The notes below the pieces were generated by a model that did not search any database, had not been told where the DNA came from, and saw nothing but the letters and a program-made list of their open reading frames with translations. 64,000 bases of DNA from contig JAQBNO010000045.1 in the NCBI GenBank assembly GCA_028288485.1, forward strand, positions 62,001 through 126,000, written 5' to 3'. Shown in pieces: positions 736 through 60,888 of this stretch. Made by a program: the position numbers and the translations under genes. Source of the stretch: Segetibacter sp. Lineage in GTDB: Bacteria; Bacteroidota; Bacteroidia; Chitinophagales; Chitinophagaceae. Positions within the stretch are counted from its first letter, which is position 1. The number at the start of each line of letters is the position of its first letter.

Positions 736-796
736 GTACAAGTGAGCGACGCAACAAAAGCCGAACAGAAATACCTCTGCTAAGTACACAAAAAAA
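736..796 (+). repeat. R1 dispersed element, copy 1
   Basis: Head GTACAAGTGAGCGACGCAAC at 736-755 and tail GCTAAGTACACAAAAAA at 779-796 enclose a variable centre with a small CAGA/TCTG inverted repeat. It lies about 50 bp upstream of the recQ start. See the R1 finding for the family. Confidence 0.75.
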
Positions 797-845
797 CTTC
801 TCTTTAAAAAAGATGCGCCTTACTTTTATCGCGTATTTATTATTT

Positions 846-3017
846 ATGACTATCTCTCCCAATCCTCAAAAAATTCTTCAAACAGTCTTTGGTTACGATT
901 CCTTTCGCCATAACCAGCAGGAGATAGTTGAACACGTTTTAGCCGGAAACGACTCTGTGGTACTGATGCCCACGGGTGGAGGTAAAAGCTTATGTTACCA
1001 GGTTCCTGCTTTGTGCCTGCCCGGTGTGACCATAGTGGTAAGTCCGTTAATCGCATTAATGAAAGACCAGGTAGATGCACTAAAGGTGAACGGTATTGAA
1101 GCGGCTTTTTTAAACAGTACACAAAGTCCGGCTGAACAATCTTTTATTTTTAAACAGTTACAGGCTAACCGGCTGAAGTTATTATACCTGGCCCCGGAGC
1201 GTTTAATGGGTAACGAAACACAATTCCTCGGGTTTTTAAAGCAAATACAGGTTTCGTTATTTGCGGTGGATGAAGCACATTGTATATCGCAATGGGGGCA
1301 CGATTTCAGGCCGGAATATTTAATATTAGGCCAGTTGAAGGAAAGCTTTCCCGGCATTCCCCTGATTGCATTAACAGCTACAGCAGATGATCTTACCAAG
1401 CAGGACATCATTCATAAGCTTCATTTTACTGAGTATAAAGTTTTTGAGAACAGTTTTAACCGCCCTAACATCTACTATTACGTAAAGCCAAAAAGTAATT
1501 ATTACGACGAGTTGGTAAGCTATTTAAAGCAACACAAAGACGATAGCGGAATTATTTACTGTTTAAGCAGGGCCGCAACTGAACGTCTTGCTGAAGATTT
1601 AAAAAGTGATGGTTTTAATGCGGAAGCCTATCATGCAGGAATTGAAAAAAATCTGAAGGACGAAAGGCAGGACAAGTTTTTGCGGGACGATATAAAAATA
1701 ATGATAGCAACGATTGCCTTCGGAATGGGCATCAATAAAAGTAATGTGCGGTTTGTAGTGCATGTTGATCTTCCCAAAAATATTGAAGGGTATTACCAGG
1801 AAACCGGGCGGGCCGGCAGAGATGGATTACATAGTGAAGCGATACTTTTTTATGGTGCAGGCGATGTAATGAAATTGAAAAAGTTTGCCGAAGTAGAAGG
1901 CAATGCGGCTCAGACAAAGATCATGCTTCAAAAGCTTGATAAGATGAGCCGGTTTTGCGAAACAAAGACCTGCAGAAGAAAGTTTCTCCTGAACTATTTT
2001 GGTGAAGATGCTGAAGATTATTGTGGCAGTTGCGATACCTGTTTAAACAAACCGGTTTTAAAGGATTGCACCGTAATCGCGCAAAAATTTTTGAGTACGG
2101 TGGCCAGGGTAAACGAAAGGTTCGGTGTAAGGTATATCGTAGATATTTTAAAGGGAAGTAATAATGAAAAAATCAAAGAGGAACATAAAAAGCTTTCGGT
2201 GTATGGCATAGGCAAGGATGCATCAAAAGAGGAATGGATCCATTATGCAAAGGAGCTGATATATTACGATTACCTGGCTTTAAGCGATGGCGAATACCCG
2301 GTCGCAAAACTTACCGAAAAAAGCAGGGCGGTATTGTACCAAAAACAAAAAGTGTATCTGTCGGCGCCGGTACATGTAGAAATTGCGAAAGAGCCGGAAA
2401 TTTACCAGCAACATACATACGAGAAAGAATTATTTGAATCGCTTAAACAGCTACGTAACAGGTTTGCCCGGGAAGAGAACGTTCCTTCCTATATCATTTT
2501 TAGTGATAGTACATTGCTCGATCTTGCAACTTATCTTCCGCTGAATACAAATGACCTTTTAAAAATATCGGGTTTTGGCGCATATAAAGCCGAGAAGTAT
2601 GGGAACTCTTTTTTAGAAACGGTGCAGGATTATTGTAGCGAAAATAACCTTCAAACGAGAATTGAATTAAGGCAACCAAAAAGAGAAAGGAAACAAAAGA
2701 CGTCTTCTGCAAATGAACGTGCTTCAGATACAAAACGCCTTTCTTTTAAGATGCATAAAGAAGGTAAAACGATTGCGCAAATTGCAGAAGAAAGAAATCT
2801 TTCACTCAATACTATCGAAACGCACTTAAGTTACTATATTTCGCAGGGTGAACTGGAAATAGAGGATTTCGTGCTACCCCACAAGCAACAGGTTATAAAA
2901 AAAGCTGCTGAATTATTTGGACCAGAGAGCCTGAGGATTTTGAAAGATAATTTACCTGAAGAAATAACTTATGGTGAAATTCGAATGATGTTAGCGGCAA
3001 TGAACAAAATAGCGTAA
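846..3017 (+). CDS. recQ: ATP-dependent DNA helicase RecQ
   Basis: A 723-residue RecQ 3'-5' DNA helicase, full length for the Bacteroidota form. Visible in order: Walker A 'TGGGKS' near residue 44, the DEAH box and RecQ aromatic loop in 'DEAHCISQWGHDFRPEY', helicase motif VI 'QETGRAGRDG', a zinc-binding region with four cysteines ending 'CGSCDTC' near 410, an HRDC domain at roughly 530-600 ('ISGFGAYKAEKYG'), and a C-terminal helical HTH-like segment. The frame opens earlier at 813, but those 11 residues are hydrophobic and not RecQ-like, so the ATG at 846 ('MTISPNPQKIL') is preferred. It repairs stalled or broken replication forks. It has no metabolic link to the purine genes around it; position is probably incidental. 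Confidence 0.95.
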   Translation: MTISPNPQKILQTVFGYDSFRHNQQEIVEHVLAGNDSVVLMPTGGGKSLCYQVPALCLPGVTIVVSPLIALMKDQVDALKVNGIEAAFLNSTQSPAEQSFIFKQLQANRLKLLYLAPERLMGNETQFLGFLKQIQVSLFAVDEAHCISQWGHDFRPEYLILGQLKESFPGIPLIALTATADDLTKQDIIHKLHFTEYKVFENSFNRPNIYYYVKPKSNYYDELVSYLKQHKDDSGIIYCLSRAATERLAEDLKSDGFNAEAYHAGIEKNLKDERQDKFLRDDIKIMIATIAFGMGINKSNVRFVVHVDLPKNIEGYYQETGRAGRDGLHSEAILFYGAGDVMKLKKFAEVEGNAAQTKIMLQKLDKMSRFCETKTCRRKFLLNYFGEDAEDYCGSCDTCLNKPVLKDCTVIAQKFLSTVARVNERFGVRYIVDILKGSNNEKIKEEHKKLSVYGIGKDASKEEWIHYAKELIYYDYLALSDGEYPVAKLTEKSRAVLYQKQKVYLSAPVHVEIAKEPEIYQQHTYEKELFESLKQLRNRFAREENVPSYIIFSDSTLLDLATYLPLNTNDLLKISGFGAYKAEKYGNSFLETVQDYCSENNLQTRIELRQPKRERKQKTSSANERASDTKRLSFKMHKEGKTIAQIAEERNLSLNTIETHLSYYISQGELEIEDFVLPHKQQVIKKAAELFGPESLRILKDNLPEEITYGEIRMMLAAMNKIA

Positions 3018-3090
3018 AGTTATTATTGTACCGGTTTTCATATTTTATAGTCCCTGAAAGTACGTCGAATTTGTTTTGTTGGAACCAACA

Positions 3091-3237
3091 TCAATGGTCG
3101 CGCTTGCCAATTCCTTCAAAAGGTGTTTGTTGAATTGATAGGATTAGAATTGTTATTGGTTCCTGGATTTTTTGGTTCCCTGATTTTTTTAAAAATGTAA
3201 GGCCTTCCAATGCCTTTGGTTGAAGTATTACTTCCAT
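3091..3237 (-). pseudogene. YoeB/Txe-like toxin, truncated remnant
   Basis: From the ATG at 3237 the minus strand reads 48 residues that resemble the first half of Txe/YoeB mRNA-cleaving toxins: 'MEVILQPKALEGLTFLKKSG' followed by 'QQTPFEGIGK', the latter a hallmark of the family. A TGA follows at once, where intact family members continue for about 35 more residues with the catalytic Glu/Arg/His. No reading frame downstream restores a clear C-terminus, so the catalytic half is lost or scrambled. The start codon lies inside the last codons of the antitoxin remnant, which is the usual translational coupling of such pairs. Recognised from family knowledge only. Confidence 0.65.
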
Positions 3238-3380
3238 AAGTCTTCAACTTCTATTTTTACTCCCTTGCCTTCAAGCATATCTTTTCTGCTTTGATCAAGT
3301 TTTTTAACCATAGCCGGATTTGATAATATCCGTTCTGTCTCGTCAGATATTTTTTTTTTCTCGCGAGGAATACGAACAAA
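3228..3380 (-). pseudogene. YefM/Phd-like antitoxin, C-terminal remnant
   Basis: An in-frame 50-residue stretch with no start codon. Its second half, 'ETERILSNPAMVKKLDQS' then 'GKGVKIEVEDLWK', closely follows the C-terminal part of YefM/Phd antitoxins ('ETxYLLSNPxMxKxLxxS', ending 'DLWK'). The N-terminal DNA-binding part is not readable in this frame. A run of ten A residues on the minus strand (about 3350-3359) is a plausible frameshift site. The stop codon overlaps the toxin ATG by several bases, as in intact yefM-yoeB operons. The remnant suggests a once mobile module that has decayed here. Confidence 0.65.
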
Positions 3381-3504
3381 TCACCAATACCTCACCAGTT
3401 CTTATTGTTATCCAATGCCTTACAGTCAGGGGCAAATAATTATCGAAAACTTATTTTTCAAATTTTCCATTTCCCCTAATCCCACGCATCCCACTAATCC
3501 GGGT

Positions 3505-4353
3505 TCAGACATCCCTCACTACCGTTCCCGTTATATACCCAAACGGCTCATCTGTTGCAATAAAAATTTCATTCTTATTCTCCATTCCAAACTGTTCGAG
3601 GTTAAATGGAATATGATGTTTGTTTGGCATTATCATGCTGATCTTTTTTACCTGTTCATTTTCTTTTAAAATGTCTTCACCCATGGCATACAACGTTTGT
3701 TGAACAGACAAGCTTTTATGAAAAGCAAAGGTTTTTAAAAGTTGCTGCCTGATCAACTCGTATGTTTGGGTAAAGTTTATCGCGGAAGGATCATAGGTCC
3801 ATGTAGCTTCAAGTTGAGTAGCCAAGATGCGGTCACTGGTTTCTTTTAAAGTGGTCAGTTTGTCTTTAATATATCCTTCAAAAGCTGAGTCTGTGGTTTT
3901 TAGTATCAACAGATCTTTTATTCCCGACGAAATAGAAACGCCCTCAACGTTTTGAATTACCTGTGCAATATGTTTTTCATTTCCGCTGCTAACAAAAGCA
4001 TGGGGATGTGCTTCCCCGTTAAAAGTTAAACGGCCGTATAAATGTTCTGTTATTTCAATAGTGGCCTGCGATACCTGTGGATTTTCTGAGATGAAATAGT
4101 TGGCCAGGTATATGGCAAAGGCTTCAATACTATCAATAAAATGATCTTTAGCCAAAGCATATACTGTATTTTTCTGAGTATCTGTGGGTAATATTTTTGA
4201 ATTATCTCCTACCGTATGCGCAGTTTCAAAGTCTCCCTCCAAAGCAACGTCTACAGAAATTTGCCTGAACTCATGGTAGTCCTTGTGCCGGATAATTTTC
4301 GATAAATTGATCCTGTTTTTCCCGTAAGTGTTTTTCTCTAACCTGGTTTTCAT
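3505..4353 (-). CDS. uox: Urate oxidase (uricase)
   Basis: A 282-residue cofactor-free uricase, converting urate to 5-hydroxyisourate with O2. Its length is typical of the T-fold family. The catalytic positions are visible: the Lys of 'YGKNRI' near residue 12, the Thr-Asp of 'LPTDTQKNT' near 57, the block 'FEGYIKDKLTTLKETSDR' with the substrate-binding Arg region, and 'MPNKHH' near the C-terminus with the catalytic His. It is divergent from allB across a 97-bp spacer, so both may share control. With uraH and uraD it completes urate to allantoin. Confidence 0.95.
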   Translation of the reverse strand: MKTRLEKNTYGKNRINLSKIIRHKDYHEFRQISVDVALEGDFETAHTVGDNSKILPTDTQKNTVYALAKDHFIDSIEAFAIYLANYFISENPQVSQATIEITEHLYGRLTFNGEAHPHAFVSSGNEKHIAQVIQNVEGVSISSGIKDLLILKTTDSAFEGYIKDKLTTLKETSDRILATQLEATWTYDPSAINFTQTYELIRQQLLKTFAFHKSLSVQQTLYAMGEDILKENEQVKKISMIMPNKHHIPFNLEQFGMENKNEIFIATDEPFGYITGTVVRDV

Positions 4354-4450
4354 GTTATTTGTATTGGTGCTGCCTATAATCGTGTCAATTTAAAGCATTA
4401 GTTGCTTTATTTTTACTAAAAGCTGAAATCTTCAATAAGCAGGTCTGAAT
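4354..4450. promoter_or_regulatory. Divergent spacer between uox and allB
   Basis: This 97-bp AT-rich spacer must hold the promoters for uox (minus) and allB (plus). A short symmetric segment, AGCATTAGTTGCT, at about 4394-4406 could be an operator half-site pair. No perfect TAnnTTTG box was seen on the plus side. Regulation by purine intermediates is an inference from the gene arrangement only. Confidence 0.35.
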
Positions 4451-5791
4451 ATGGATGAATTTGCAATTAAAAGTTATCGTGTAGTAACGCCGGAGCATGT
4501 TAAAGCAGCTTTTGTTTTAATAAAGAACGGCGTTATAACTGATGTGGTTGAGACTTTACCCGAAAGCTTTTTCGTTAAAGTAATTGATGTAGGAGATAAG
4601 CTTTTAATGCCCGGAGTTACAGACCCGCATGTGCATATAAATGAACCGGGACGAACTGAATGGGAAGGTTTTGAAACCGCAACTAAAGCTGCAATTGCCG
4701 GCGGAATTACCACTTTAATAGATATGCCCCTAAATTCATCGCCTGTAACAACAACAGCAAAAGCATTCAACGAAAAACTGGCTGCGGCAAAAAATAAAAT
4801 TCATGCAAATGTTGGCTTTTGGGGTGGACTGGTTCCTGGCAATGAGAAAGATATTGAACCTTTAATTGAAAGAGGAGTATTGGGGTTTAAAGCATTCCTC
4901 ACACACTCCGGTATAGGTGAATTTCCTAACGTAACAGAAGAAGATTTGAGAAAGGCAATGCCAATAATTGCAAAGTATGATTTGCCGTTATTGGTTCATT
5001 GCGAGCTAACGGGTGAGGTGAAGCTTGAAAGGTCAAACGTGAATTCGTATCAGCAATACGTAGCTTCGAGGCCAAAAGAATGGGAGGATAAGGCCATTGA
5101 AATGATGATACGGTTGTGTGAAGAGTTGAATTGTCGCGTGCATATTGTCCATTTGTCTTCAGCCAATTCTATTGAAGCAATTGCGAAGGCGAAATCTAAA
5201 GCATTACCCTTAACGGTTGAAACAGCGCAGCATTATTTATATTTTAATGCAGAAGAAATACCTGATGGCAATACAGCTTTTAAATGTGCCCCGCCTATTC
5301 GTGAAAAAGCCAACAATGAGCAGCTATGGCAGGCTTTAAAAGATGGTATAATTGACTTTGTTGCTACCGACCATTCTCCGGCTCCTCCGGCTATAAAAGA
5401 ACTCGAAAGCGGCGATTTTACAAAAGCATGGGGAGGAATATCGTCTCTGCAATTTGCGTTGCCCGTGTTATGGACAGCAGCTAAAAAAAGAGGCGGTAGT
5501 TTGCAGGAACTGGTAAAATGGCTTTGTGTAAATCCGGCAAAGCTTGCAGGGAGAGCCAGCACAAAAGGAAAAATAGCCAAAGGCTTTGATGCAGATTTAA
5601 TTGTCTTTGACGATGAAAAAACTTTCACCGTAACTGAAGATCTTATTCAGCATAAGCATAAAGTAACGCCGTATTTAAATGAAATGTTGGCGGGTGTAGT
5701 TGAACAAACTTATTTGCAAGGCGTAAAGGTCTTTGATAAAGGTGCTTTTACAGAACCAAACAAAGGAAACATTATAACAAGGAACGGATGA
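4451..5791 (+). CDS. allB: Allantoinase
   Basis: A 446-residue amidohydrolase-superfamily enzyme that opens allantoin to allantoate. Metal ligands are visible: HxH in 'TDPHVHINEPGRTEWEGF' near residue 60, the carboxylated Lys in 'GFKAFLTHSG' near 150, the His of 'LLVHCE', the His of 'HIVHLSS', and the Asp of 'ATDHSPAPP' near 310. The 'EPGRTEWEGF' segment favours allantoinase over dihydropyrimidinase or dihydroorotase. It is the first gene of a tight plus-strand run, its stop overlapping the allC start by 4 bases (ATGA). Confidence 0.94.
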   Translation: MDEFAIKSYRVVTPEHVKAAFVLIKNGVITDVVETLPESFFVKVIDVGDKLLMPGVTDPHVHINEPGRTEWEGFETATKAAIAGGITTLIDMPLNSSPVTTTAKAFNEKLAAAKNKIHANVGFWGGLVPGNEKDIEPLIERGVLGFKAFLTHSGIGEFPNVTEEDLRKAMPIIAKYDLPLLVHCELTGEVKLERSNVNSYQQYVASRPKEWEDKAIEMMIRLCEELNCRVHIVHLSSANSIEAIAKAKSKALPLTVETAQHYLYFNAEEIPDGNTAFKCAPPIREKANNEQLWQALKDGIIDFVATDHSPAPPAIKELESGDFTKAWGGISSLQFALPVLWTAAKKRGGSLQELVKWLCVNPAKLAGRASTKGKIAKGFDADLIVFDDEKTFTVTEDLIQHKHKVTPYLNEMLAGVVEQTYLQGVKVFDKGAFTEPNKGNIITRNG

Positions 5792-7032: not shown

Positions 7033-7035
7033 CCA

Positions 7036-7782: not shown

Positions 7783-7854
7783 GTAGTAGTAAGATGTAAG
7801 TAGCAAGTCGTAAGAAAGCAACAGGTAAAAAGTGAGGAATTAGGGAATTAGGAA

Positions 7855-7913
7855 TTTTTTGGTAGCCGGCGTGAGTAATTCTATTAACCTTTTGTTGCCA
7901 CGCTCGCTTGTAC
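7855..7913 (-). repeat. R1 dispersed element, copy 2 (degenerate)
   Basis: On the minus strand the head reads GTACAAGCGAGCGTGGCAAC (7913-7894), with a TAAT/ATTA centre and an A-run tail (RC of TTTTTTGGTAGCC). More diverged than most copies. Confidence 0.6.
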
Positions 7914-7955
7914 CGTAAAGCATTATTCAGCGCGGCAGTTCACCCTGTCCCGGTC

Positions 7956-9490: not shown

Positions 9491-9534
9491 CGAATGAAAA
9501 CAGTCGCAAGACGGTTTGCCGATGAACGGATTGC

Positions 9535-9650
9535 CACCCTTCGACAAGCTCAGGGGAAACTGCGGGATGCTATGAAAAACTGCGTGTCAACCGAGCGTGG
9601 CAACGATGATGCACCAATAACAAATGCCGGTACCAAAATTAAAAATACAA
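9535..9650 (+). repeat. R3 composite repeat, copy 3 (diverged)
   Basis: Starts with an R3 motif (ACCCTTCGACAAGCTCAGG), then after about 45 bp a segment GAGCGTGGCAACGATGATG and GCCGGTACCAAAATTAAAAA. The same order occurs at 30201-30451 and, inverted, at 49167-49328. Confidence 0.6.
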
Positions 9651-15947: not shown

Positions 15948-16400
15948 TTAATTATTGCCAGATTGTTTTTCATAATCCCTTCTATGCCCCGCATCAACAG
16001 CATAACAGCCTGAAATAATACTTAACTTATTCCCGGTAATTTGTATAAATACCTTAGTCGACTGGTCATCGTTGTCATAAATAATCCTGTTTCTAAATTC
16101 GCCTGCGGGTAAAACAAGGCATACACTCGCCTCAACTGTTGTATCACTTACGATAGAATAGGTTCCCCTTTTAACAAGTTGTCCGTCTGTGAAAGACTCG
16201 TAGTTCGAACCCGTGAATTTTAAGATATTGCCGTTTGCTGCCGGATAATCAGTGGCTGCCCTCATACCACCCGAACTTTGCCTTAATTCCCAACTGCCAA
16301 TGATACGCGTTTCAGCATTATTTGTTGAATTGTCTTTTCCGCACGCTGGAAAAAGACTGACTAACGATGCAAAAGCGATTATTGAAATGAGCCGTTTCAT
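15948..16400 (-). CDS. Small lipocalin-like lipoprotein
   Basis: 150 residues. The N-terminus 'MKRLISIIAFASLVSLFPAC' is a lipoprotein signal with the lipid Cys at 20. After a short linker the mature protein begins 'RIIGSWELRQSSGG', followed by 'GNILKFTGSNYESFTDGQLVKRGTYSI'. This pattern is common in small Bacteroidota lipocalin-like domains. Likely in the inner leaflet or periplasm-facing side of a membrane; function unknown. It stands alone. Confidence 0.75.
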   Translation of the reverse strand: MKRLISIIAFASLVSLFPACGKDNSTNNAETRIIGSWELRQSSGGMRAATDYPAANGNILKFTGSNYESFTDGQLVKRGTYSIVSDTTVEASVCLVLPAGEFRNRIIYDNDDQSTKVFIQITGNKLSIISGCYAVDAGHRRDYEKQSGNN

Positions 16401-18376: not shown

Positions 18377-18874
18377 CCTTTTTTTTCGTGTCAATGCCGG
18401 TATAAGCAAGATAAAGTAATGATCTTAAAGCAGGAACACTTCAATTGCTGTAATGCGTAACCTGCTAAATTGAAACAACCTTGCAACATTACCTCCAGCG
18501 CATTGCAAGACTAACTTATCTTTTATTATTATACTTCCGCCTTCTAAATTTCTTCATTGTTGCCTGTTGTATAAACCGTACAACGGTCCCTGCCTCGGCG
18601 CCGCGAGGGCGGGAAGAATGAAAAATTGTAGTAATCCTGCCGGCTCAATAAAATTATTACCCACCTTATTATTCCAAAAAGGTTACGAGTAATGCCTCTT
18701 AACACACATTTCTACTGCATTAAACGATTGATGCAGTAGGGAATGTGTGAATGATGTAACACTTTCCTTTAATTTATGTAACACTACAACACATTGAAAA
18801 ACGTTCATTTTGCGTTTTAATACGTGTGCAAAAAAATTTAAAGCACAATAATTACATTTCACCAATCCGAATTT
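18377..18874. other. 498-bp spacer upstream of the DUF3494 lipoprotein gene
   Basis: No gene seen. Its main feature is the long inverted repeat at 18703-18749. A GC-rich patch at about 18590-18612 is unlike the surrounding sequence. The promoter of the downstream gene should lie after 18750. Confidence 0.5.
18703..18749. promoter_or_regulatory. Long inverted repeat upstream of the DUF3494 lipoprotein gene
   Basis: Arms CACACATTTCTACTGCAT and ATGCAGTAGGGAATGTGTG pair over 17 bp with a small internal bulge, around a 10-base centre TAAACGATTG. There is no T-run on either side, so it is not a simple terminator. It lies about 125 bp before the ATG at 18875. It could be an operator, perhaps for the PAS-AraC regulator just upstream, or a leader hairpin. 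Confidence 0.5.
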
Positions 18875-29874: not shown

Positions 29875-30200
29875 AAAGAACTATTAATACTGTCCATAAA
29901 AGGCAGTACGGTGCAATATTACTCATTAAGGTATTGATAGTTAATTAATTAATCATAAAGTTTTCTTTTATTTTTTAAGGTATTTTATATTAACCAAATG
30001 CTTATACCTGGCCCAGGTGGAAAGGAATTTAGATTTTTTTGTAGCAAAATATAGGAAGCGTTTTTTATCTAATTGCTGCTATAATTCAGTTTTGGGAGAG
30101 ATAGTTATCTGAGGTACTTGTTCAACAACTATAAAAATGTACAAGAGTACGACGCGAGAAACCTTAGGGGGCGGCCCCCCAACCATTCAAAATGAACTTT

Positions 30201-30310
30201 GCGACCCTTCGGCTTCGCTCAGGCGACCCTTCGGCTTCGCTCAGGCTACCCTTCAGCTTCGCTCAGGCTACCCTTCGGCTTAGCCCAGGCTACCCTTCGG
30301 CTTCGCTCAG
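30201..30310 (+). repeat. Five-unit 22-bp tandem array (R3)
   Basis: Five head-to-tail units of 22 bp start at 30201, 30223, 30245, 30267 and 30289. Each is a version of G(C)(G/T)ACCCTTCGGCTTCGCTCAG. Units differ by one to four bases. There are no spacers between them, so this is not a CRISPR. The array is the first part of R3 composite copy 1. Confidence 0.9.
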
Positions 30311-30451
30311 GATAAAAAAAAATGCTTCGCTAAGTTCTATCAAAGAATTATAAGTTGAACTGAGCGTAGCAACGATGATTCTTATAGTACAAAAAGCCGG
30401 TATCAAAAAAACATTAAAAATTAAGACAGCAAAAACGAGTTCATTAATAGG
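30201..30451 (+). repeat. R3 composite repeat, copy 1
   Basis: The 22-bp array is followed by an A-run, an inverted repeat (GCTAAGTTC and GAACTGAGC), then CGTAGCAACGATGATTC, AGTACAAAAAGCCGGTA and TTAAGACAGCAAAAACGAG. The same order is found inverted at 49167-49328, where the array is a single unit, and in diverged form at 9535-9650. Confidence 0.8.
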
Positions 30452-30504
30452 ATGCTGCATAAAAAGCCAGTGCTGGTACCAAAAAAATGAATACGGATAC
30501 GGGC

Positions 30505-35800: not shown

Positions 35801-35866
35801 GGGTACTGTAGTGCGCTAAAAAATGTAAGTGTTTTGCAAGTCCTCCTTCCGGGGACGATTTAGGAG

Positions 35867-35924
35867 TTTTTTGTACTTAGCTGAAGCTCTACTATGATGC
35901 TTCCGTTGCGTCGCACACTTATAC
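35867..35924 (-). repeat. R1 dispersed element, copy 4
   Basis: Minus strand: head GTATAAGTGTGCGACGCAAC, centre with GAAGC/GCTTC inverted repeat, tail GCTAAGTACAAAAAA. It lies just after the esterase-fusion gene. Confidence 0.8.
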
Positions 35925-35976
35925 GGCTGTAATTGCATCAACAGGTTGTTGGAGTTGTTAATCAATAAGTAAATAA

Positions 35977-36107: not shown

Positions 36108-36212
36108 ATTTTTTGTTCCAGGAGTGCAAATATAGAAAAAGATAATTAGCAATTGAGCAATTATGACTCCCGAAGTAGGAGATAGGAGGGAAGGGGAATA
36201 GAGAAGCGATAA

Positions 36213-36270
36213 GTACAAGTGAGTGACACAACGATGTTGAATGAAGTTCTGCTGTTTGTTACCCAAAAAA
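36213..36270 (+). repeat. R1 dispersed element, copy 5
   Basis: Head GTACAAGTGAGTGACACAAC with GATG at 36213-36236. The tail is diverged (TTACCCAAAAAA) and ends 7 bp from the stop of the histidine kinase gene on the other strand. Confidence 0.72.
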
Positions 36271-36276
36271 CCTACA

Positions 36277-38955: not shown

Positions 38956-39201
38956 AATGATTGAAACAAAATAACGTTGTTTTTGTTTAATTTGTTTAGG
39001 TCTGTTCCTGTTTTACTTCTACAATTTTATGGTTTGCTACTAATCTAACAAATACCAATCTTATATCGAAGCGTTTTTCTACTAAAGTTTACGCTTTCTA
39101 CCAATTTTTACTGTACAAGTCGTAATATGTAAGTCGCATTTTTTAAGACCGGTATGAAAGGGAATATTATAATACGAGCCGGTGTGTTCCATAGGTTGCT
39201 T

Positions 39202-39222
39202 CGTTGCGTCGCAATCACTTTA
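39202..39222 (-). repeat. R1 dispersed element, copy 6 (head only)
   Basis: Minus strand reads a diverged head with GCGACGCAACG; no clear tail follows. Confidence 0.4.
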
Positions 39223-39510
39223 TCGGCAAATCTTTTGGCAGCAAGCAGGCGAGGGTAAAGTTAATAAGAAAAGTAACTATTTGAAAGTTGGATGTGCCAT
39301 TTTCAAATTTTCGTTTTCGCATAATTAGTGTTCGTCATTTCGGGTGGTTAATTTCTCTAACTAAAATAGTTCTTTGAAGATCAACATGGTATAATAAGAG
39401 CGTTATTAATTTTTCATCTTTCATCGAATGCAGTGTTGTCACGTTCTTTTATCTCAGAAAATGTTTCTGTTTTTATCGGTTTCGATGAATGTTGTTGCAT
39501 TTCCTTTATG

Positions 39511-43251: not shown

Positions 43252-43624
43252 AATACATCTAACCTAAAAACTGCAATTTCAGCTAAGTTTGCAACAGAAC
43301 CAAGATTTTAGGGATTTTAAAGGATTTGGACGAAATAGAACGCGGATTGGACTGATTAGAAAAATAGCACCGGGAAAGCAGGGATGAGAAGAATTATGAG
43401 CAAGAAAGAAGCTTGATCGAATAGATTTCAAGGATGAGTTTAAAATAATAGGTTATTCATGGAGCTTCTTTATCCCATTATTCCCTAAAATCGCACTCAT
43501 CCGCAGCTCCGACAAAATTTGCAGAACGTGGTTTGTTGTACAGTGAGTGACACTAACTGTCCCGTTCACGGGAACGATGTTTAATTGGAATACTTGAGTT
43601 AAGTACATAAAAAAGACTTCATTA
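43252..43624. other. 373-bp divergent spacer with R1 copy 7
   Basis: Spacer between the thioredoxin-like gene (minus) and the glycosyltransferase gene (plus). No gene seen. Its last 90 bp are an R1 element of the long subtype. Confidence 0.5.
43538..43614 (+). repeat. R1 dispersed element, copy 7 (long subtype)
   Basis: Head GTACAGTGAGTGACAC is followed by an extra segment with CCCGTTCACGGG, then ACGATG and the tail TTAAGTACATAAAAAA. Only copy 13 shares this insert. The tail ends 10 bp before the next start codon. Confidence 0.75.
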
Positions 43625-48954: not shown

Positions 48955-49045
48955 TTTCTTCATTTTTATTTTTTACTGAAACCTTAGAGGATATTTAGTC
49001 AGCGGCGCTGCTTGAGAAATAAGCATGATACTAACGGACCTGGAG

Positions 49046-49106
49046 TTTTTTTGTAGCCAGCGATAGAATTTACATTAGATATCGTTGCGTCGCACACTTC
49101 TGCTAC
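49046..49106 (-). repeat. R1 dispersed element, copy 8
   Basis: Minus strand: head AAGTGTGCGACGCAACGAT, centre with a CGATA/TATCG inverted repeat, tail GGCTACAAAAAAA. Confidence 0.75.
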
Positions 49107-49166
49107 ATCAAAAAATCAACACGCTCATTTTGTTTGGCGTAACGGCCCCTTTAACGGTTAGGCTTC

Positions 49167-49328
49167 TCTACTAATGAACTCGTTGTTGCTGTCTTGTTTT
49201 TAATGTTTTTCGGTACCGGCTTTTTGTACTATAAGAATCGTCGTTGCTACGCTCAGTTCAACCTTTAATTCTTTGATAGAACTGAGCGTATCAGTTTTTT
49301 TTTTACCCTGAGCTAAGCCAAAGGGTCG
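49167..49328 (-). repeat. R3 composite repeat, copy 2
   Basis: Minus strand: one R3 unit (ACCCTTTGGCTTAGCTCAGG), an A-run, inverted repeat CGCTCAGTTC/GAACTGAGCG, then CGTAGCAACGACGATTC, AGTACAAAAAGCCGGTACC and AAGACAGCAACAACGAG. It aligns closely with 30289-30451 over its whole length. Confidence 0.8.
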
Positions 49329-49598
49329 CAATCTTTTTCGTCTGCATTGCCAGTTGCAACAAAAGAGTGAAGTTGATGCCTGTTTTTATGGATTGGTGTT
49401 ATAATATTCGCTTCTCACAACTGGTATTGCATAAGATGCACCACCCGGTTGGGGTGCCGGCGAAGGCATGCTGAAACCAGCAAAGCGGTTTCTGAAACAA
49501 GCGGGTGGAATCCCGTACAATAACGAAGAAACGTGGCTCGAGCTATAAATGATCGCACTAGAACTCCATTTTGCATGGTTTCGGCGACCCTAGGTTTC

Positions 49599-49617
49599 TT
49601 GCGTCGCACACTTGTAC
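49599..49617 (-). repeat. R1 dispersed element, copy 9 (head only)
   Basis: Minus strand GTACAAGTGTGCGACGCAA; the tail is not recognisable. Confidence 0.6.
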
Positions 49618-49717
49618 ATTTTGTTCTTCTGTAAATTTTTGGAGCACAAGTAACATCATTGATTTTTGTATTCCCATAAATCCTGTCAATCGTATAATCT
49701 GTGTTAAGTTTGCAGCA

Positions 49718-51839: not shown

Positions 51840-52102
51840 AATAAAATGTTTTAAGTTTTAAGAATTAGGAACAGCAACAGCACGTTCAATAGTTATGCCA
51901 TTAAAAAAGCTTCGTTGGAAAGTTTTTTCGGAAGGAGTTGTAATTTATTAGAAATGACAAGAGAATGATTTACAATACATGGTTAACTAATAAATAAGAG
52001 CCGGAAAAGTTTGAAGCAAATAAAACGCTATTTAAAAAAAAAATCGAGTCTCTGCGGTCCTGCTTTGTTTAAATAAAAGTTTAAGTAATGTTCCAGACCG
52101 AG

Positions 52103-52167
52103 ATACAAGTTGCAGTGAGTGACACAACGATGTTAAAGAAAGTACCAATGCTTGCTCCATAAAAAAA
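52103..52167 (+). repeat. R1 dispersed element, copy 10
   Basis: Head ATACAAGTTGCAGTGAGTGA with CACAACGATG following; a CAATGC centre; tail ATAAAAAAAG. The head has a 4-bp insertion. Confidence 0.7.
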
Positions 52168-52188
52168 GCACCCTTAATAAGGGTGCAC
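52161..52188 (-). terminator. Rho-independent terminator after the FadL-type porin gene
   Basis: GCACCCTT (52168-52175) and AAGGGTGC (52179-52186) pair perfectly around AAT; on the minus strand seven T follow. It is about 20 bp after the stop codon. Confidence 0.85.
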
Positions 52189-53782: not shown

Positions 53783-53862
53783 AAACTACGAGTTAATAAA
53801 AACCGCATTCAAACGAACACGGTTTTTTTATATAATCAATTACAAGTTCAAATTCTATTGTA

Positions 53863-54774: not shown

Positions 54775-56253
54775 ATGAGTAAGGAAATTACTTCGAGAAA
54801 AGATGATTATTCTCAATGGTATAACGACTTGATTATTAAGGGAGGACTAGCCGATTATAGTGCTGTGCGGGGGTGCATGGTTATTAAACCTTATGGCTAT
54901 GCTCTTTGGGAAAACATGCGCGATGTACTCGATAAAATGTTTAAGGATACCGGGCACCAGAACGCTTATTTCCCATTGTTCGTTCCCAAGAGCCTGTTTG
55001 AAAAAGAGGAAGAAAATGCGGAGGGATTTGCAAAGGAATGCGCAGTTGTAACGCACTATCGTTTAAAGGTAAACCCTGACAAGAAGGGTGCTTTAATGGT
55101 TGACCCGGAAAGTAAGCTGGAGGAAGAACTTATAATAAGACCAACGAGCGAAGCGATTATCTGGAATACCTATAAGGGCTGGATCCAAAGTTACAGAGAC
55201 CTCCCTTTGCTGATTAATCAATGGGCGAATGTGGTAAGGTGGGAGATGCGTACCCGGTTATTTTTGCGAACCGCTGAATTCTTGTGGCAGGAAGGACATA
55301 CTGCCCATGCTACTGCAGAAGAAGCAGTAGCAGAAACCAAACAGATGCTTGAAGTTTATGCAGACTTTGCGGAAACTTATATGGCGATGCCGGTAATTAA
55401 AGGCGTTAAAAGTGCAAACGAGCGTTTTGCAGGTGCTTTGGATACGTATTGCATTGAAGCGATGATGCAGGATGGAAAAGCTTTGCAGGCTGGAACTTCT
55501 CACTTTCTTGGTCAAAATTTTGCCAAAGCGTTTGACGTAAAGTTTAGTGATAAAGAAAACAAGCTGGATTACGTTTGGGCAACGAGTTGGGGAGTAAGTA
55601 CACGACTTATAGGTGCATTAGTTATGGCGCACAGCGACGATGACGGGCTGATCCTTCCTCCAAAGCTGGCGCCGATACAGGTGGTGATCGTTCCTATATT
55701 TAAAGGGGAGGAGCAAAAAAAAGCAATTGATGAAAAGGTAAGTGTTCTTGTAAAAGAACTGAAACAGGCAGGCGTAAAAGTAAAATATGATGACAGTGAT
55801 AATGCAAGGCCGGGCTGGAAGTTCGCAGAATATGAATTGAAAGGTGTTCCGCTAAGAATTGGAATAGGCGCAAGGGACATTCAAAATAATGTAGTTGAAG
55901 TTGCAAGGCGCGATACCCGTGAGAAGAAAAGTTACCCTATGGAAGGTCTTGCCGACAGCCTTGTGAATTTGCTAAACGACATCCAGCAAAGTATTTACAA
56001 CAAGGCGTTTAATTTCAGGGAAGAACATATAACGCCTGCAGAAACGTGGGACGAATTTGTGAAATTGCTGGATGAAAAAGCGGGCTTCATTTCGGCGCAT
56101 TGGGATGGAACAGGTGAAACGGAAGACAAGATCAAGGAACTTACCAAAGCTACCATTCGGTGCATTCCTTTAAACAATACAAAGGAGGAAGGCAAGTGTA
56201 TTCTTACTGGTCAACCATCGAACCAAAGGGTGTTATTTGCAAGAGCATATTAA
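54775..56253 (+). CDS. proS: Prolyl-tRNA synthetase, archaeal/eukaryotic type
   Basis: 492 residues, the short ProS type without the bacterial editing insert. Class II motifs: '[20 protein letters not shown]' near motif 1, '[20 protein letters not shown]' and '[20 protein letters not shown]' (motif 2), and '[20 protein letters not shown]' (motif 3). The anticodon domain contains '[20 protein letters not shown]' and the protein ends '[10 protein letters not shown]' with the terminal Tyr usual for this type. This version is common in Bacteroidota. Confidence 0.96.
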
Positions 56254-56275
56254 TACAACGAAGTAATAATATTTT

Positions 56276-56302
56276 AAAACCAGCGGCTAAACCGCTGGTT
56301 TT
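56276..56302 (+). terminator. Rho-independent terminator after proS
   Basis: AAAACCAGCGG (56276-56286) and CCGCTGGTTTT (56292-56302) form a perfect 11-bp stem with loop CTAAA, followed by AATTTTTAA. 22 bp after the stop. Confidence 0.9.
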
Positions 56303-56354
56303 AATTTTTAATATTATATTTATAGGTACTTGCAAAATCCAAAACTACCTGCTA

Positions 56355-56666
56355 ATGTCTCAATCATTTCAGCAACAGCCGTTCGATAGGCAAACGCCTC
56401 CTAAGAACTACCTGGTTGAAGCTATCCTTGTCACCATATTTTGTTGTTTGCCAATGGGTATACTCGGGATTATTTTCGCCATGCAGGTAAACAGCAAGTT
56501 TGCTAACGGTGATTATGAAGGTGCCCTGGGGGCATCGAAAGACGCGGCAAAGTTTACAAAGATCGGCTTTATTGTCAGTTTGGTTTTTGTTGCCTTGTGG
56601 TTGGCTTTCATATTTATTTTCGGAGGATGGGCGATTATGCAAGAATGGAGACATAATGACGATTAG
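56355..56666 (+). CDS. CD225/dispanin-family small membrane protein
   Basis: 103 residues from the ATG at 56355 ('MSQSFQQQPFDRQTPPKNYL'); the longer frame from 56160 overlaps proS and its terminator. The CD225 pattern is clear: first intramembrane segment 'VEAILVTIFCCLPMGILGII', the conserved 'FAMQVNSKFANGDYEGALGA' and 'SKDAAKFTKIGF' linker, then a second membrane segment. The double Cys and the basic/small linker match interferon-induced transmembrane relatives. Its role in bacteria is unknown. Its stop overlaps the GTG start of the next gene by one base. Confidence 0.9.
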   Translation: MSQSFQQQPFDRQTPPKNYLVEAILVTIFCCLPMGILGIIFAMQVNSKFANGDYEGALGASKDAAKFTKIGFIVSLVFVALWLAFIFIFGGWAIMQEWRHNDD

Positions 56667-57088
56667 TGGGAACAGCCAAACCAATAATAGAGTTTTCAGT
56701 AGTTGTTGTAGCGGCGTTGGGTTTGGCGCTGTTGTATTTTTTTGCAGATGCACGTATCGTTACCTTTTTTCCGCCATGTCCTTTCCACCGGTTAACGGGC
56801 CTGTTTTGTCCTGGCTGTGGATCACAACGGGCTATTTCGGCCCTTTTGCATGGCCAATTATTGCACGCTATTCGTTTCAACCTGTTGCTTGTTTGTTGCC
56901 TGCCTTTGTTGGCTTATTCTGCATACACATCCACGTTAAAGTTGTCTGCCCAAAAACCTCAAATTCAACGCCTTTTTTATTCTCCCTTGTTTGTAAAAAG
57001 CTTTTTAGTAATGGTGATTATGTTTTTCATATTAAGAAATATCCCGTCATATCCATTCAACCTCTTAGCTCCTCACTCTCTTCGATAA
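56666..57088 (+). CDS. DUF2752 membrane protein
   Basis: 140 residues from a GTG that overlaps the previous stop (TAGTG). Three hydrophobic segments. The DUF2752 core is 'FFPPCPFHRLTGLFCPGCGS' followed by 'QRAISALLHGQLLHAIRFNL', with the CxxxxxxxxxxCxxC pattern that defines the family. DUF2752 and CD225 genes are often neighbours in Bacteroidota. Function is not known. The 16S-like start coupling implies joint expression with the CD225 gene. Confidence 0.88.
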   Translation: MGTAKPIIEFSVVVVAALGLALLYFFADARIVTFFPPCPFHRLTGLFCPGCGSQRAISALLHGQLLHAIRFNLLLVCCLPLLAYSAYTSTLKLSAQKPQIQRLFYSPLFVKSFLVMVIMFFILRNIPSYPFNLLAPHSLR

Positions 57089-57225
57089 GAAAGGATTGTA
57101 GAGCTGGCATAACGAGATTGTTCGATAGTGGTTGTTTACTTAATTTGTGGAGATGTAGATAATAATAGAATAAGCTGAGTGAACAGAAAGTATTAATTTA
57201 CCTTCTTTGTAATAAATCACCCCCA

Positions 57226-57402
57226 ATGACGAGGAATAAAATTGCTTTAACTTTAGCTGTAGTTGCCGGATTAATTTGCTTAGCCAAATTTGTGCATACC
57301 TATATTCAAACAAAAACTTTTGACTACCTGATTTTGTTTGCAGGTCTTTTTATTATCTTTTTTGGCATTAGTCGCAACATGCCAAAACGTAATAATCACT
57401 GA
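57226..57402 (+). CDS. 58-aa two-helix membrane protein
   Basis: A short frame starting at the ATG at 57226 and ending in TGA at 57402. The sequence starts 'MTRNKIALTLAVVAGLICLA', has a short polar loop ('KFVHTYIQTKTFDY'), a second hydrophobic helix ('LILFAGLFIIFFGIS') and a basic end 'RNMPKRNNH'. Positive residues at both ends suggest both termini in the cytoplasm. It is the third membrane gene on this strand after CD225 and DUF2752. Not recognised; a small regulatory or structural subunit is possible. Confidence 0.7.
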   Translation: MTRNKIALTLAVVAGLICLAKFVHTYIQTKTFDYLILFAGLFIIFFGISRNMPKRNNH

Positions 57403-57433
57403 CAGACCGTTCAATAAAGCTTTATCATTTTAG

Positions 57434-57494
57434 TGTCTTTTTTCGGGGGCCGGCAGCCGGCGTAAAGGCAACTCCGGTTGTGTCACTCACTTTT
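57434..57494 (-). repeat. R1 dispersed element, copy 11
   Basis: Minus strand: head AAAAGTGAGTGACACAACC; GC-rich centre GCCGGCTGCCGGC, self-complementary; tail CGAAAAAAGAC. Confidence 0.65.
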
Positions 57495-57579
57495 GCCGCA
57501 TCTTTTCATGGCAGCATACTTTTGAAGAAACATGTGGACTTGAATTTCGGAGTTTTAAAACTTCAAGTAATGACTTGCC

Positions 57580-57638
57580 GTACAAGTGAGTGACACAAGA
57601 ATGCCAAATAGTAATTTGAAAGCTAAGTACAAAAAAAA
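57580..57638 (+). repeat. R1 dispersed element, copy 12
   Basis: Head GTACAAGTGAGTGACACAA at 57580, centre with CAAAT/ATTTG inverted repeat, tail GCTAAGTACAAAAAAAA. One of the cleanest copies. Confidence 0.82.
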
Positions 57639-57754
57639 GAAAACAGCGGCGGCGACTGACCACAGACGACAAACGACCGACAAAACCCAAACCTGCAGTT
57701 GCCGATTTTCAACTCGCGACTTGCGAACTCACCACTAACCAGTCACAACTCACC

Positions 57755-58480
57755 CTACAACTGCGAGGTAACATGATTATAATCAGCGAGGATCACCTGC
57801 AAAAAAAGGCGGGGCTCGGGCTGTTTGCTCATAATTTGAAGCGTTTGCTCAATTTTCTGCTGTGCCTGCAGCGCTAACATGCTGTTACCGCTTCTGTTAA
57901 CGTTCAGTATAACTTCTTTGATCAACTGTATGTCGCCGTCGTTTAAATTGACCACTTCAGGATAAGTAACCCGGTATGTAGCGGGATCAACGGGTTCGTA
58001 AAAAGTATGTTGCATTTGTGTTCGCGGCCTTGTTTTTACCAGCACTGTACCTGCAATGACATCTCCAAGCCGTTGCTTTTTTTCTGTTACAGCCACCATT
58101 ACCAATGCAAGCAGGTTGCTGGTGATGGTGAAGTCGATAAGGCGGAAAACCCACCGGTTAAAGTATTGACCGAAAGAAGGTTGACTGCCATTGAGGCTGA
58201 TAACTTTTATTCCCATAACTTTTTTACCTACACTCTGGCCGTTCAGCAGCAGTTCGCACAAAAGGTCGTAAAAAAACAGCGGGAGAACAAGAACGACCAT
58301 TAGCCATTCGTAACCATTCAGGAATTGTCGCCCCGTAAAGCCGATAAGGAACAGAGCCAGGATCACATAAGCTATCAATACTGCCCAGTCAATGATGGTT
58401 CCTAGCATTCGGTCGCCCAGGCTGCCAAGTTCATACTCAACATCGATATTCTGCGGAGTAGTTATATTTATCGTGTTCAT
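57755..58480 (-). CDS. RDD-family membrane protein
   Basis: 241 residues. The RDD domain is at about 10-150, with 'VEYELGSLGDRMLGTIIDW' giving the Arg and Asp, two or three membrane segments, and 'NGQSVGKKVMGIKVISLNG' and 'RWVFRLIDFTIT'. A soluble C-terminal part of about 80 residues is predicted to be helical ('GDIQLIKEVILNVNRSGNS'). It is divergent from the SpoIIM gene. In Bacteroidota such a gene commonly starts the MoxR-associated cluster that follows here. Confidence 0.9.
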   Translation of the reverse strand: MNTINITTPQNIDVEYELGSLGDRMLGTIIDWAVLIAYVILALFLIGFTGRQFLNGYEWLMVVLVLPLFFYDLLCELLLNGQSVGKKVMGIKVISLNGSQPSFGQYFNRWVFRLIDFTITSNLLALVMVAVTEKKQRLGDVIAGTVLVKTRPRTQMQHTFYEPVDPATYRVTYPEVVNLNDGDIQLIKEVILNVNRSGNSMLALQAQQKIEQTLQIMSKQPEPRLFLQVILADYNHVTSQL

Positions 58481-58659
58481 ATAATAGGTTATGCCCCCGC
58501 CCTTGACAGGATTTACACTGGCAAAAACAAAACAAATATCCCGGAAAATAAACTTCCTGCCAAGTAACCGGCCAATCGAATAAATTTTAGTGCATTAATA
58601 AAAATAACCACATAAATTGTCACTTATTTTTACAATTCACCTAAACTTGCCGGCATTAT

Positions 58660-59718
58660 ATGAGAGAAGCGCAGTTTCTGAAGCAAAACGCAGAGAAATG
58701 GAAGCTGTATGAAGCGGAAATTAAGGAGAATGAACAACCTGATAAACTTGCGGACCGCTTTATTGAATTAACAGATGACCTGGCCTACAGTAAAACATTT
58801 TACCCCTCCAGTAATACAACCAGGTACCTTAACGGATTAGCCAGCCTGTTTCACCTGAAAATATATAAGAACAAAAAAGAACAGACCGGCCGGATTTTGA
58901 ATTTTTGGCAATTTGAGCTGCCTTATTTATTCAGGTATTACCACCGCCTGTTTTTTTACTCGTTTATTTTCTTCGTTGTTTTTTGTGGTATCGGAGCGTT
59001 GTCAGCTAAGTACGATGAAACTTTTATCAGGCTCATTTTAAGTGATGGCTATGTTGATATGACCAATGAAAATATTGAAAAAGGTGACCCTTTCGGTGTG
59101 TATAAAAGCATGAACCAGGTAACTATGTTTTTTCACATCGCTTTCAACAACATTAGGGTTGCATTTGCAACGTACGTAATGGGAGGTATATTCTCGGTGG
59201 GTGCCATCTGGTTATTATTGAATAACGGCTTAATGCTGGGTTCTTTTGAATATTACTTTTTTTCAAACGACCTTGGATTTAAGAGCATTACCGTAATTTT
59301 TATTCATGGAACGTTAGAGATTTGGGCATTTGTAATTGCAGGGGCTGCAGGTTTAATCCTGGGAAACAGCATGCTATTCCCGGGAACTTATAGCAGGAGT
59401 GTGTCGATTTTAAAAGGTGGAAAAGATGGCTTGAAGATAGTACTGGGCCTGGTGCCCATCTTCCTGGTGGCGGCATTTTTAGAAAGCTTCGTAACCCGCT
59501 ACGATAACATGCCTTTGTGGCTAAGCTTATCGATATTAACGGCGAGTGTAATCTTTATAATTTGGTACTTTATACTATACCCGATGCAGCTACACGCGAA
59601 AATTAAAAACGCGTTAAATGAAAGGACAAAACACTATCAAACCCCAACCCAAAACTTTACCGCATGGCTGAACAAAAAATTGAATTCAGAAAAATCAGGG
59701 ACTTTAGTGAAAACCTGA
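58660..59718 (+). CDS. SpoIIM-family (stage II sporulation protein M-like) membrane protein
   Basis: 352 residues. A soluble N-terminal helical part ('MREAQFLKQNAEKWKLYE') precedes about seven membrane segments. The SpoIIM block is in 'FFHIAFNNIRVAFATYVMGG' and 'LMLGSFEYYFFSNDLGF', then 'FIHGTLEIWAFVIAGAAGLI'. The family takes its name from a spore-forming protein, but here it is a non-sporulation relative tied to MoxR clusters. It may help assemble or insert the VWA/DUF58 complex; that is inference. The next gene starts 55 bp before its stop. Confidence 0.9.
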   Translation: MREAQFLKQNAEKWKLYEAEIKENEQPDKLADRFIELTDDLAYSKTFYPSSNTTRYLNGLASLFHLKIYKNKKEQTGRILNFWQFELPYLFRYYHRLFFYSFIFFVVFCGIGALSAKYDETFIRLILSDGYVDMTNENIEKGDPFGVYKSMNQVTMFFHIAFNNIRVAFATYVMGGIFSVGAIWLLLNNGLMLGSFEYYFFSNDLGFKSITVIFIHGTLEIWAFVIAGAAGLILGNSMLFPGTYSRSVSILKGGKDGLKIVLGLVPIFLVAAFLESFVTRYDNMPLWLSLSILTASVIFIIWYFILYPMQLHAKIKNALNERTKHYQTPTQNFTAWLNKKLNSEKSGTLVKT

Positions 59719-60548
59719 ACGATACCTTTCTATTTATAAAACAGAATTTCAAGCCGCTCGTCATCAGTTTCCTTACCATTGCCGGGGTGTTTATATTAGC
59801 CAATTCTATTTTTAACGGTATCTATCAAAGCCGGATGGAAGGATTTTTCAGGCAGATTTTTTCCGGTGGCCGAGCCTCTGCAGGTTATCCTTACCAAATG
59901 TTAGGTGGTAGTTCTATCCTGTTACCGATTCTTGGATGGTTAAGTATGACTGCCATGCAGGTAACCATTATTGCGTACATAAAGGTATACGAACTGAAAC
60001 AGCGCGAGGAGGCTACAGTTGCAGAAGTATGGGAAGAGTTTAAAGCGTATTATTTTAAGGTACTGATCTATTCAATTCCTGTTTATTTATTATCGCTTTT
60101 GGGTTATGTTTTTTGCATTGCGCCCGGCGTTTACTTTACCGTAGTATTTCTGCCTTTCCCTGTTTTGTTAATGGTAGAAAACGTGAGCTTTAACGGCGCC
60201 TATAATCGTTGCTTCGAGATCATTAAAAATAACTGGTGGCAGTCGTTTGTTATTTACCTGGTTGTATACCTTATATATGCCTTTTCAGCCGCTATTATTT
60301 CGTATACAATGGCAGGTGTAGCAGGTTTACTTTCGTATTTTACAACTAATGATTTATCTGCCACAATAGGAATTGCTACCTCGGTGCTCAGCGTATTTTC
60401 ATTTGTTTTTTACATCATCTTTTATGTATCGGTTGCTATGCATTACTTTACCCTTGCCGAAAAGCTTGACGGTACGGGAATGCTGCAGCGACTTGACAGG
60501 CTGGGTGAAAAGGGCGGTGATTTTGATAACATTAAAGAGCAGTATTAG
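59664..60548 (+). CDS. Multi-span membrane protein of the MoxR cluster
   Basis: 294 residues with a cytoplasmic N-terminus ('MAEQKIEFRKIRDFSENLND') and six or so membrane segments. A repeated 'YLLSLLGYVFCIAPGVYFTV' and 'NGAYNRCFEIIKNNWWQSFV' recall DUF975/glycerophosphodiesterase-type membrane domains. The family is not named with confidence. It overlaps the SpoIIM gene by 55 bases, unusually long, but the start is supported by the strong N-terminal sequence. Place in the cluster says it belongs to the same membrane complex. Confidence 0.82.
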   Translation: MAEQKIEFRKIRDFSENLNDTFLFIKQNFKPLVISFLTIAGVFILANSIFNGIYQSRMEGFFRQIFSGGRASAGYPYQMLGGSSILLPILGWLSMTAMQVTIIAYIKVYELKQREEATVAEVWEEFKAYYFKVLIYSIPVYLLSLLGYVFCIAPGVYFTVVFLPFPVLLMVENVSFNGAYNRCFEIIKNNWWQSFVIYLVVYLIYAFSAAIISYTMAGVAGLLSYFTTNDLSATIGIATSVLSVFSFVFYIIFYVSVAMHYFTLAEKLDGTGMLQRLDRLGEKGGDFDNIKEQY

Positions 60549-60888
60549 GTGGGGAATGGACAGTGTCTTAACTGTAAGTCAAAAGTCGCTGATCGACCGT
60601 TCAAAGTCGTCAGCCGGTAGTTAGACTATCAGTGGCCGGGGTCAGTTGTCCGTGGTCTTTTCTTGTACTTAGCTTCAGAATTACTGTTTCGCATTGTTCC
60701 CGTTAACGGGACAGGAGTGTCACTCGGTTGTACGGTGTGTAGTTATGGGGCTTTTGCCGATAGCATTTGAATGTCCAAAACGACAAACACAATCATTACA
60801 AAGCATCAAATTACAGGAAAGTATGTTGCACATGGGCATCCTTCCCTTGCAGGAGAAGGACGGAGTTTACCGCGGTAATTCGGGGAGG
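60549..60888. other. 340-bp spacer with R1 copy 13 inside the MoxR cluster
   Basis: Separates two plus-strand cluster genes. A frame from 60694 is open to the DUF4129 gene, but its first 65 residues run through R1 copy 13 and lack coding character. A short AGTC-rich tract lies at about 60578-60620. Confidence 0.55.
60657..60733 (-). repeat. R1 dispersed element, copy 13 (long subtype)
   Basis: Minus strand: GTACAACCGAGTGACACTCC, then CCCGTTAACGGG, ACAATG, a CAG/CTG centre and the tail GCTAAGTACAAGAAAA. It shares the extra palindromic segment with copy 7. Confidence 0.8.

Follow-up and report, generated by a model that had tools for sequence, protein, structure and literature searches.

R1, a dispersed intergenic element of the Chitinophagaceae that looks like a REP- or BOX-type repeat

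Dispersed palindromic repeats are best known from Proteobacteria and streptococci; BOX repeats are modular. Here we analyse R1, a repeat which a first-pass annotation had noticed at 13 sites in a 64,000-nucleotide stretch of a Segetibacter genome (assembly GCA_028288485.1, contig JAQBNO010000045.1, positions 62,001 to 126,000 of the forward strand; the whole stretch is called the window, the genome the source genome). R1 looks like a REP- or BOX-type repeat of one bacterial family. Published accounts describe REPs (repetitive extragenic palindromes) and REPINs as short, palindromic, multicopy, extragenic and non-autonomous, with compensatory stem variants and REP-associated tyrosine transposases (RAYTs) (PMC3116915, PMC3733652), and name REPs as known targets of insertion sequences (PMC1525189). 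The published account of the pneumococcal BOX, RUP and SPRITE repeats portrays them as dispersed, as products of past proliferation that now move slowly, and as scarcely present in most relatives, with some large BOX elements (PMC3049150). For the CGTC-tagged palindromic repeats of Bacteroidetes, stems of 8-9 bp, loops of 4-5 nt and a terminal CGTC are given (PMC3733652).

Measured against these descriptions, R1 resembles REPs and REPINs in being a short extragenic palindrome of high copy number, non-autonomous and with compensatory variants. Unlike REPs, whose stems are mostly 5-13 bp in the same sources, it has no GTAG or CGTC tag at a stem foot; its consensus is GTACAAG-core-CAAC-GATG, and the sole shared stem is the core dyad of about 11 nt. 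It also differs from them in its extra, direct-repeat-like arms, in its two fixed core states and in a copy number that was independent of Y1 transposase genes in the relatives tested. With the CGTC repeats of Bacteroidetes, as described there, it shares the palindromic nature, the extragenic place and the phylum, but not the stem; CGTC occurs mid-dyad in the reverse complement of one R1 core state and not in the other. Like the pneumococcal repeats, R1 is dispersed, scarce in most relatives, modular and in part large, and it probably spread in the past and is slow now. The modularity is BOX-like in that core inserts and composites share common R1 ends. Unlike BOX, R1 belongs to another phylum and takes up the extra module at one place in the core. 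R1 lacks some of the features for which it was tested, both those of REP/RAYT elements and those of classical miniature inverted-repeat transposable elements (MITEs). It is a real, large, family-specific element which works like a REP or BOX repeat.

R1 is about 80 nt long and consists of a left arm, a 14-nt palindromic core and a right arm with an A-run at its end, spanning about -26 to +53 relative to the core (81 and 151 copies of the source genome, picked by core). The left arm opens with a weak G-N-T-G-A-A-T-A, followed by GTACAA before the core. The core consensus is G-[T/A]-G-[A/T]-G-[T/C]-GAC-[A/G]-CAAC, then GATG, and the head pattern is GTACAAGTGWGYGACRCAAC. 3' of GATG lies a weak centre with a TNAATAG-like start, then GCCGGNNCC and the A-run. 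The commonest form of the tail noted in the first-pass annotation is GCCGGTACCAAAAAA-like and not GCTAAGTACAAAAAA. The A-runs exceed those of a control window in length. The idea of a bacterial short interspersed nuclear element (SINE), prompted by the A-tail, was rejected, as target-site duplication was not found. The two arm consensuses are alike, with r 0.74 when offset by 42 nt and 0.62 at the next best offset, 65. That the arms are a duplicated target was rejected, since arms match at 3.78 of 12 positions within a copy and at 3.76 between copies. The arm consensus is closely similar across core classes. In the source genome the best arm match, 42 of 58 positions, exceeds the 35-37 of column-shuffled sets, hence R1 subfamilies exist.

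The 13 sites are a small part of a dispersed repeat. In the source genome (6,375,045 bases, 220 contigs) the head pattern with up to two mismatches matched 905 times, on both strands as the first-pass annotation had seen (460 and 445 copies), and the reversed pattern did not match at all. At about 80 nt each, these copies make up about 1% of the genome. Among 59 genomes, the source genome included, 23 had head matches, all of one family; the nine congeners G001 to G009 had 1299, 77, 287, 109, 700, 134, 3, 686 and 573, respectively. In a sample of 396 genomes of the order, 70 of the 133 family members matched, 33 of them at least ten times, with the largest counts in G178 (1,439) and G121 (1,420). 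Of 263 genomes outside the family, 12 gave one or two matches each, which is roughly what the reversed-pattern control gives (the numbers inside and outside the family are by-eye counts). Named records carry R1 in at least 107 stretches, mainly from Segetibacter and Ferruginibacter among the 80 listed; since both are Chitinophagaceae, this is the family of R1. Some of these records carry no label beyond Bacteroidetes or Sphingobacteriales bacterium.

Three new findings stand out: the core strictly has two states, it persists at syntenic sites and it serves as an insertion point. When three core positions were left free and a GTACAAG-like left flank was required, 523 copies were obtained from all sampled loci. 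A-T-A (AGTGACA) was found in 259 of them, T-C-G (TGCGACG) in 256 and any other combination in 8; the corresponding numbers for the source genome are 82, 75 and 2. Two of the three coupled positions pair in the dyad, as T-A in 261 and as C-G in 259 copies, compared with about 131 and 129 expected under independence. The third does not pair, thus pairing alone cannot account for the coupling. Beyond these positions only the second core letter clearly associates further with the state. In a mutual information analysis of 151 copies of the source genome the core coupling was built in by the selection of core forms, so the count of 523 copies is the deciding one; outside the core, high values occurred between adjacent or shifted columns. 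The covariation of R1 is in the core.

Congeners have syntenic gaps with and without the element, i. e. R1 differs in presence and absence between relatives. At the window site 43538, G005, G008 and G009 each have a co-oriented plain-core element at the corresponding place, and G003 has none; at site 52103 a co-oriented element is present in G005 and G008 and missing from G009, G007, G004 and G003. In total, 17 syntenic congener pairs of co-oriented elements in matching positions were compared (one same-place pair with opposite orientation was excluded). The core state was the same in 14 of them and changed in three, twice in G001 and once in G002. Core identity was 0.91 in the 17 pairs (mispaired 0.81), centre identity 0.46 (mispaired 0.30), and the flanks reached 0.31 upstream (mispaired 0.26) and 0.33 downstream (mispaired 0.28). 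When 17 head-less syntenic gaps were scanned with a profile of the whole element, four turned out to contain an element whose core was either expanded or of another type: G003 near 49 kb, G008 at 47.2 kb, and the loci L176 and L268 of the source genome.

The place at which R1 takes up additional DNA is the core. Of 379 left halves (source and congener loci), 326 had a recognised right arm. The spacing between GAC and AAC was 2-3 nt in 310 of these and was listed as 16-84 nt in 16; L261, among these, is in fact a plain core whose right arm was misplaced, which leaves about 15, with gaps of 20-84 nt. The extra core DNA is often palindromic by eye. In addition, three families, X, Y and Z, combine long stems or other cores with the same kind of right arm (26, 30 and 11 copies, counted with loose patterns in overlapping sets). 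A scan for right arms only was noisy (651 raw matches against 305 in reversed sequence; 554 after merging, 194 with a known core), and its other matches were taken into account only if a palindromic core could be seen as well.

A larger insert is a composite of about 450-500 nt, whose start is at GTACAAG and whose junction with an R1 right arm lies at GATG. Besides the copy at 49.6 kb at least ten more were found at 79-87% identity in a search that scored the best 11 candidates per genome, and further copies in addition. Ten composite right arms from loci of the source genome are all different and begin at the same place; nine have an A-run. Among five full copies (10 pairs) the inserts have an identity of 0.67-0.88 with a mean of 0.78; the left and right arms of the same five reach 0.49 and 0.58, compared with 0.51 and 0.60 for random R1 pairs. 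In the 49.6-kb copy the R1 left arm and head lie at 49617-49598 and the right arm starts at about 49167. Its insert contains a 140-nt palindromic module, which shows the matched changes GTTATTGC/GCAATAAC and GTTCTTGC/GCAAGAAC, together with a nested R1 with further hairpins in its core; this nested core is plain in G005 and palindrome-filled in the source genome. The gap which holds the composite and its neighbouring R1 measures about 850 nt in the source genome versus 145-150 nt in G005, G008 and G009; in G003 it is 1,468 nt long and holds another element. The second composite of the window, at 30 kb, contains five tandem CCCTTCGGCTTCGCTCAGG-like palindromes and is without the 140-nt module. 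Matches to the composite were absent from plasmid and phage collections (E 0.001).

The 140-nt module also stands alone in congeners, as an imperfect palindrome GTTATTGCAACGGGAC...GTCCCTTATGCAATAAC (L274, L288, L291, L272, L273 and L290), with several copies in G001, G002, G005, G008 and G009. It is possibly an independent mobile element. The CCCTTCGGCTTCGCTCAGG-like palindrome recurs in other R1 cores of the source genome.

R1 is mostly intergenic. In 861 kb of the source genome, 131 of 133 copies were scored as such with a simple gene caller, which is crude (coding fraction 0.67, 461 genes) and misses genes; at least one of the 131, at window position 16143, is a chance match within a missed open reading frame. 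The first-pass annotation had placed no copy inside a called gene; within the window, site 36213 overlaps an open reading frame of 102 aa, and site 49599 an over-extended TTG start. Of the 131 copies scored as intergenic, 84 have the 3' end of the neighbouring gene on their A-run side, a mild bias, and R1 has no fixed orientation relative to genes. R1 was rejected as part of a terminator: flanks folding below -8 kcal/mol amount to 23% downstream and 24% upstream. Downstream, the value is 30% where the next gene faces R1 and 11% otherwise, a pattern which the terminators of the facing genes would give.

All 13 window sites exist and are related to R1 (Table 1). The head pattern with up to three mismatches recovered ten of them, where shuffles expect 0.02; sites 39202 and 43538 were recovered with a looser core and 60657 as an expanded core. 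Yet they are not 13 like copies, since 7855, 43538, 60657 and 49599 are not plain, and the count missed the related copies entered as additional elements and as second composite. In the copy at site 7855, the upstream GCCGCGCT could pair with AGCGTGGC with one mismatch. Close pairs of R1 are seen, e. g. at 57.4-57.6 kb.

Table 1. R1 copies and related elements in the window
Position	Strand	Element	Remarks
716..795	+	R1 copy	core GTGAGCGACGCAAC (rare mixed state)
7853..7938	-	R1 copy	core type Y (GCGAGCGTGGCAAC), differing from usual core
9515..9640	+	additional element	left half of subfamily A; core holds CCCTTCGACAAGCTCAGGG palindrome and a type Z stem
18552..18655	+	additional element	GC-rich palindrome replaces core; identified by eye from its right arm and GTACAA
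21405..21484	-	R1 copy	core state AGTGACA
30139..30489	+	second composite	ends as in the 49.6-kb one
35865..35944	-	R1 copy	core state TGCGACG
36193..36272	+	R1 copy	core state AGTGACA
39163..39242	-	R1 copy	subfamily A (TTTGCCGATAAAGTGATTGCGACGCAAC)
43517..43616	+	R1 copy	extra hairpin DNA of about 20 nt (GTCCCGTTCACGGGAAC) inside core
49044..49123	-	R1 copy	immediately after composite
49122..49643	-	composite	site 49599 at its left end
52089..52168	+	R1 copy	
57437..57516	-	R1 copy	core state AGTGACA
57560..57639	+	R1 copy	core state AGTGACA; strand opposite to neighbouring copy
60654..60753	-	R1 copy	hairpin of about 20 nt (GTCCCGTTAACGGGAAC) inserted in core

A few observations concern the distribution of R1. 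The exact head was found in 17 stretches (L299-L315) of 14 viral contigs, for which provirus, host contamination or phage carriage are possible; in L299 it lies directly 5' of an apparent start codon. Of the nine exact matches listed for G225, all on one contig, the six between 0.39 and 1.42 Mb lie on the plus strand and the three between 3.09 and 3.42 Mb on the minus strand, which could reflect a replication-strand bias. No such bias was seen in the one-contig genome G013, where 30 forward and 28 reverse copies are interspersed by eye.

Our tentative reading, for which we see close to an even chance, is that R1 is an old, non-autonomous, non-coding intergenic family of the Chitinophagaceae that was moved in trans and whose protein-recognised core doubles as a landing place. 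R1 would have spread by being mobilised in trans. Its core would be the recognition site of a sequence-specific DNA-binding protein, either the mobiliser or a host nucleoid protein, and this putative protein would accept two core sequences but not their intermediates. The core may further serve as a site where palindromes and larger composites are inserted while both arms are retained. It would be kept intact by selection and not by copying between elements.

The first-pass annotation had offered two ideas, a structured RNA and a miniature mobile element. A structured small or cis-acting RNA with a variable stem now appears improbable. The core can form a small hairpin with a compensatory T-A/C-G change, and hairpin tips of structured RNAs tolerate insertions, which counts in favour of this idea. 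However, consensus folding of five core classes (25, 227, 108, 138 and 30 copies) shows only the core, and the conserved ends share no further fold. In 223 copies of the source genome the short inverted repeats of the centre are at chance level, and the centre has no folding excess (z -0.02 against mononucleotide shuffles; 3.6% below -2, flanks 5.8% and 7.2%). Rfam gave no match to R1 at gathering scores in the window and three further stretches of the source genome, and only sub-threshold matches (E 3.5-9) around the composite; nor is there a fixed orientation to genes. The stem-like part of R1 is the head itself, and the module that varies is the core, by replacement or insertion. The miniature mobile element without a named family fared better: the 905 copies, the uneven congener counts, the syntenic presence and absence and the negative Rfam result all agree with it. 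Head and palindrome strings of R1 were absent from the text of open papers, where sequences in figures or supplements would escape, and no open papers on Segetibacter intergenic repeats were found.

If R1 is such an element, it could be a pure parasite, MITE- or REP-like and moved by a Y1 (RAYT-type) or other transposase, with the core as the transposase hairpin, copy differences as traces of past bursts, and otherwise without effect. We consider this possible though rather unlikely. The very uneven copy number within the genus, both orientations and the syntenic presence and absence are in line with it, as are one intact and one broken Y1 match in the source genome (L009, L010; the intact gene has no R1 within 2 kb, the broken match has R1 at least about 1 kb away). 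Yet PF01797 matches do not track R1 copy number in 26 relatives (246 copies in G033 and 134 in G006 without any match, 1,299 in G001 beside two partial or broken ones, 3 in G007 beside seven), and a Y1/RAYT partner was rejected on this ground. In raw counts, R1 lies within about 2-3 kb of five of 22 Y1 loci. The core also persists at some syntenic sites despite the drift of the arms. Alternatively, cores could be exchanged by short gene conversion, i. e. by hairpin breakage and repair from another copy, which would keep them identical and two-state and spread inserts from core to core. Such concerted evolution would account for uniform cores with diverged arms, for arms that are similar in both core classes, for alternative cores at syntenic places and for one insert in many R1 copies. 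Against it stand the nearly equal states, which frequent conversion would randomise, and the retained state in most syntenic pairs, albeit with shared ancestry; it is improbable in our view.

Several points weigh against the reading of R1 as a trans-moved family with a protein-recognised core. The 17 syntenic pairs share ancestry, so the 14 unchanged states are not independent, and all changes fall in G001 and G002. Nothing recognisable was found in 13 of the 17 head-less gaps; two of the four alternative-core elements were seen by eye only, at background scores, hence the profile scan can miss such elements, also in these 13. Among 206 copies of the source genome and 634 in total there was no signal of target-site duplication, though short duplications of old copies may escape because the exact ends are uncertain; the same sets gave no excess of direct or inverted repeats between the end regions, a MITE feature. 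No near-identical copies of the short element occurred among those compared in the source genome, the best arms being the ones mentioned above. Because the core itself served as the query, the counts are too low for copies with a decayed or foreign core, and part of the core conservation follows from the search. In folding, the extra core DNA has only a modest advantage over shuffled sequence (mean z -1.1; z below -1.5 in 31%). The composite right arm in L262 lacks the A-run, the common start of the right arms was judged by eye, and left junctions come from only six copies of the source genome. Finally, no mobility enzyme was found, the number of Y1 transposases being independent of R1 copy number.

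A further interpretation is that R1 forms a genome-wide network of attachment sites, with a family-wide, two-state recognition core which selection would preserve in hundreds of intergenic locations and a dedicated putative system that would insert DNA, palindromic or composite, at one exact position. This we likewise regard as improbable; if true, the chromosome would carry about 900 ready, type-specific landing pads. In R1, a member of the Bacteroidota has a repeat that occupies about 1% of its genome, with no Y1 link in the tested relatives, a core restricted to two states and one insert shared by ten different copies. It offers hundreds of natural two-state replicates with which to ask which protein reads the core, and whether these elements are parasites or are kept by the host.

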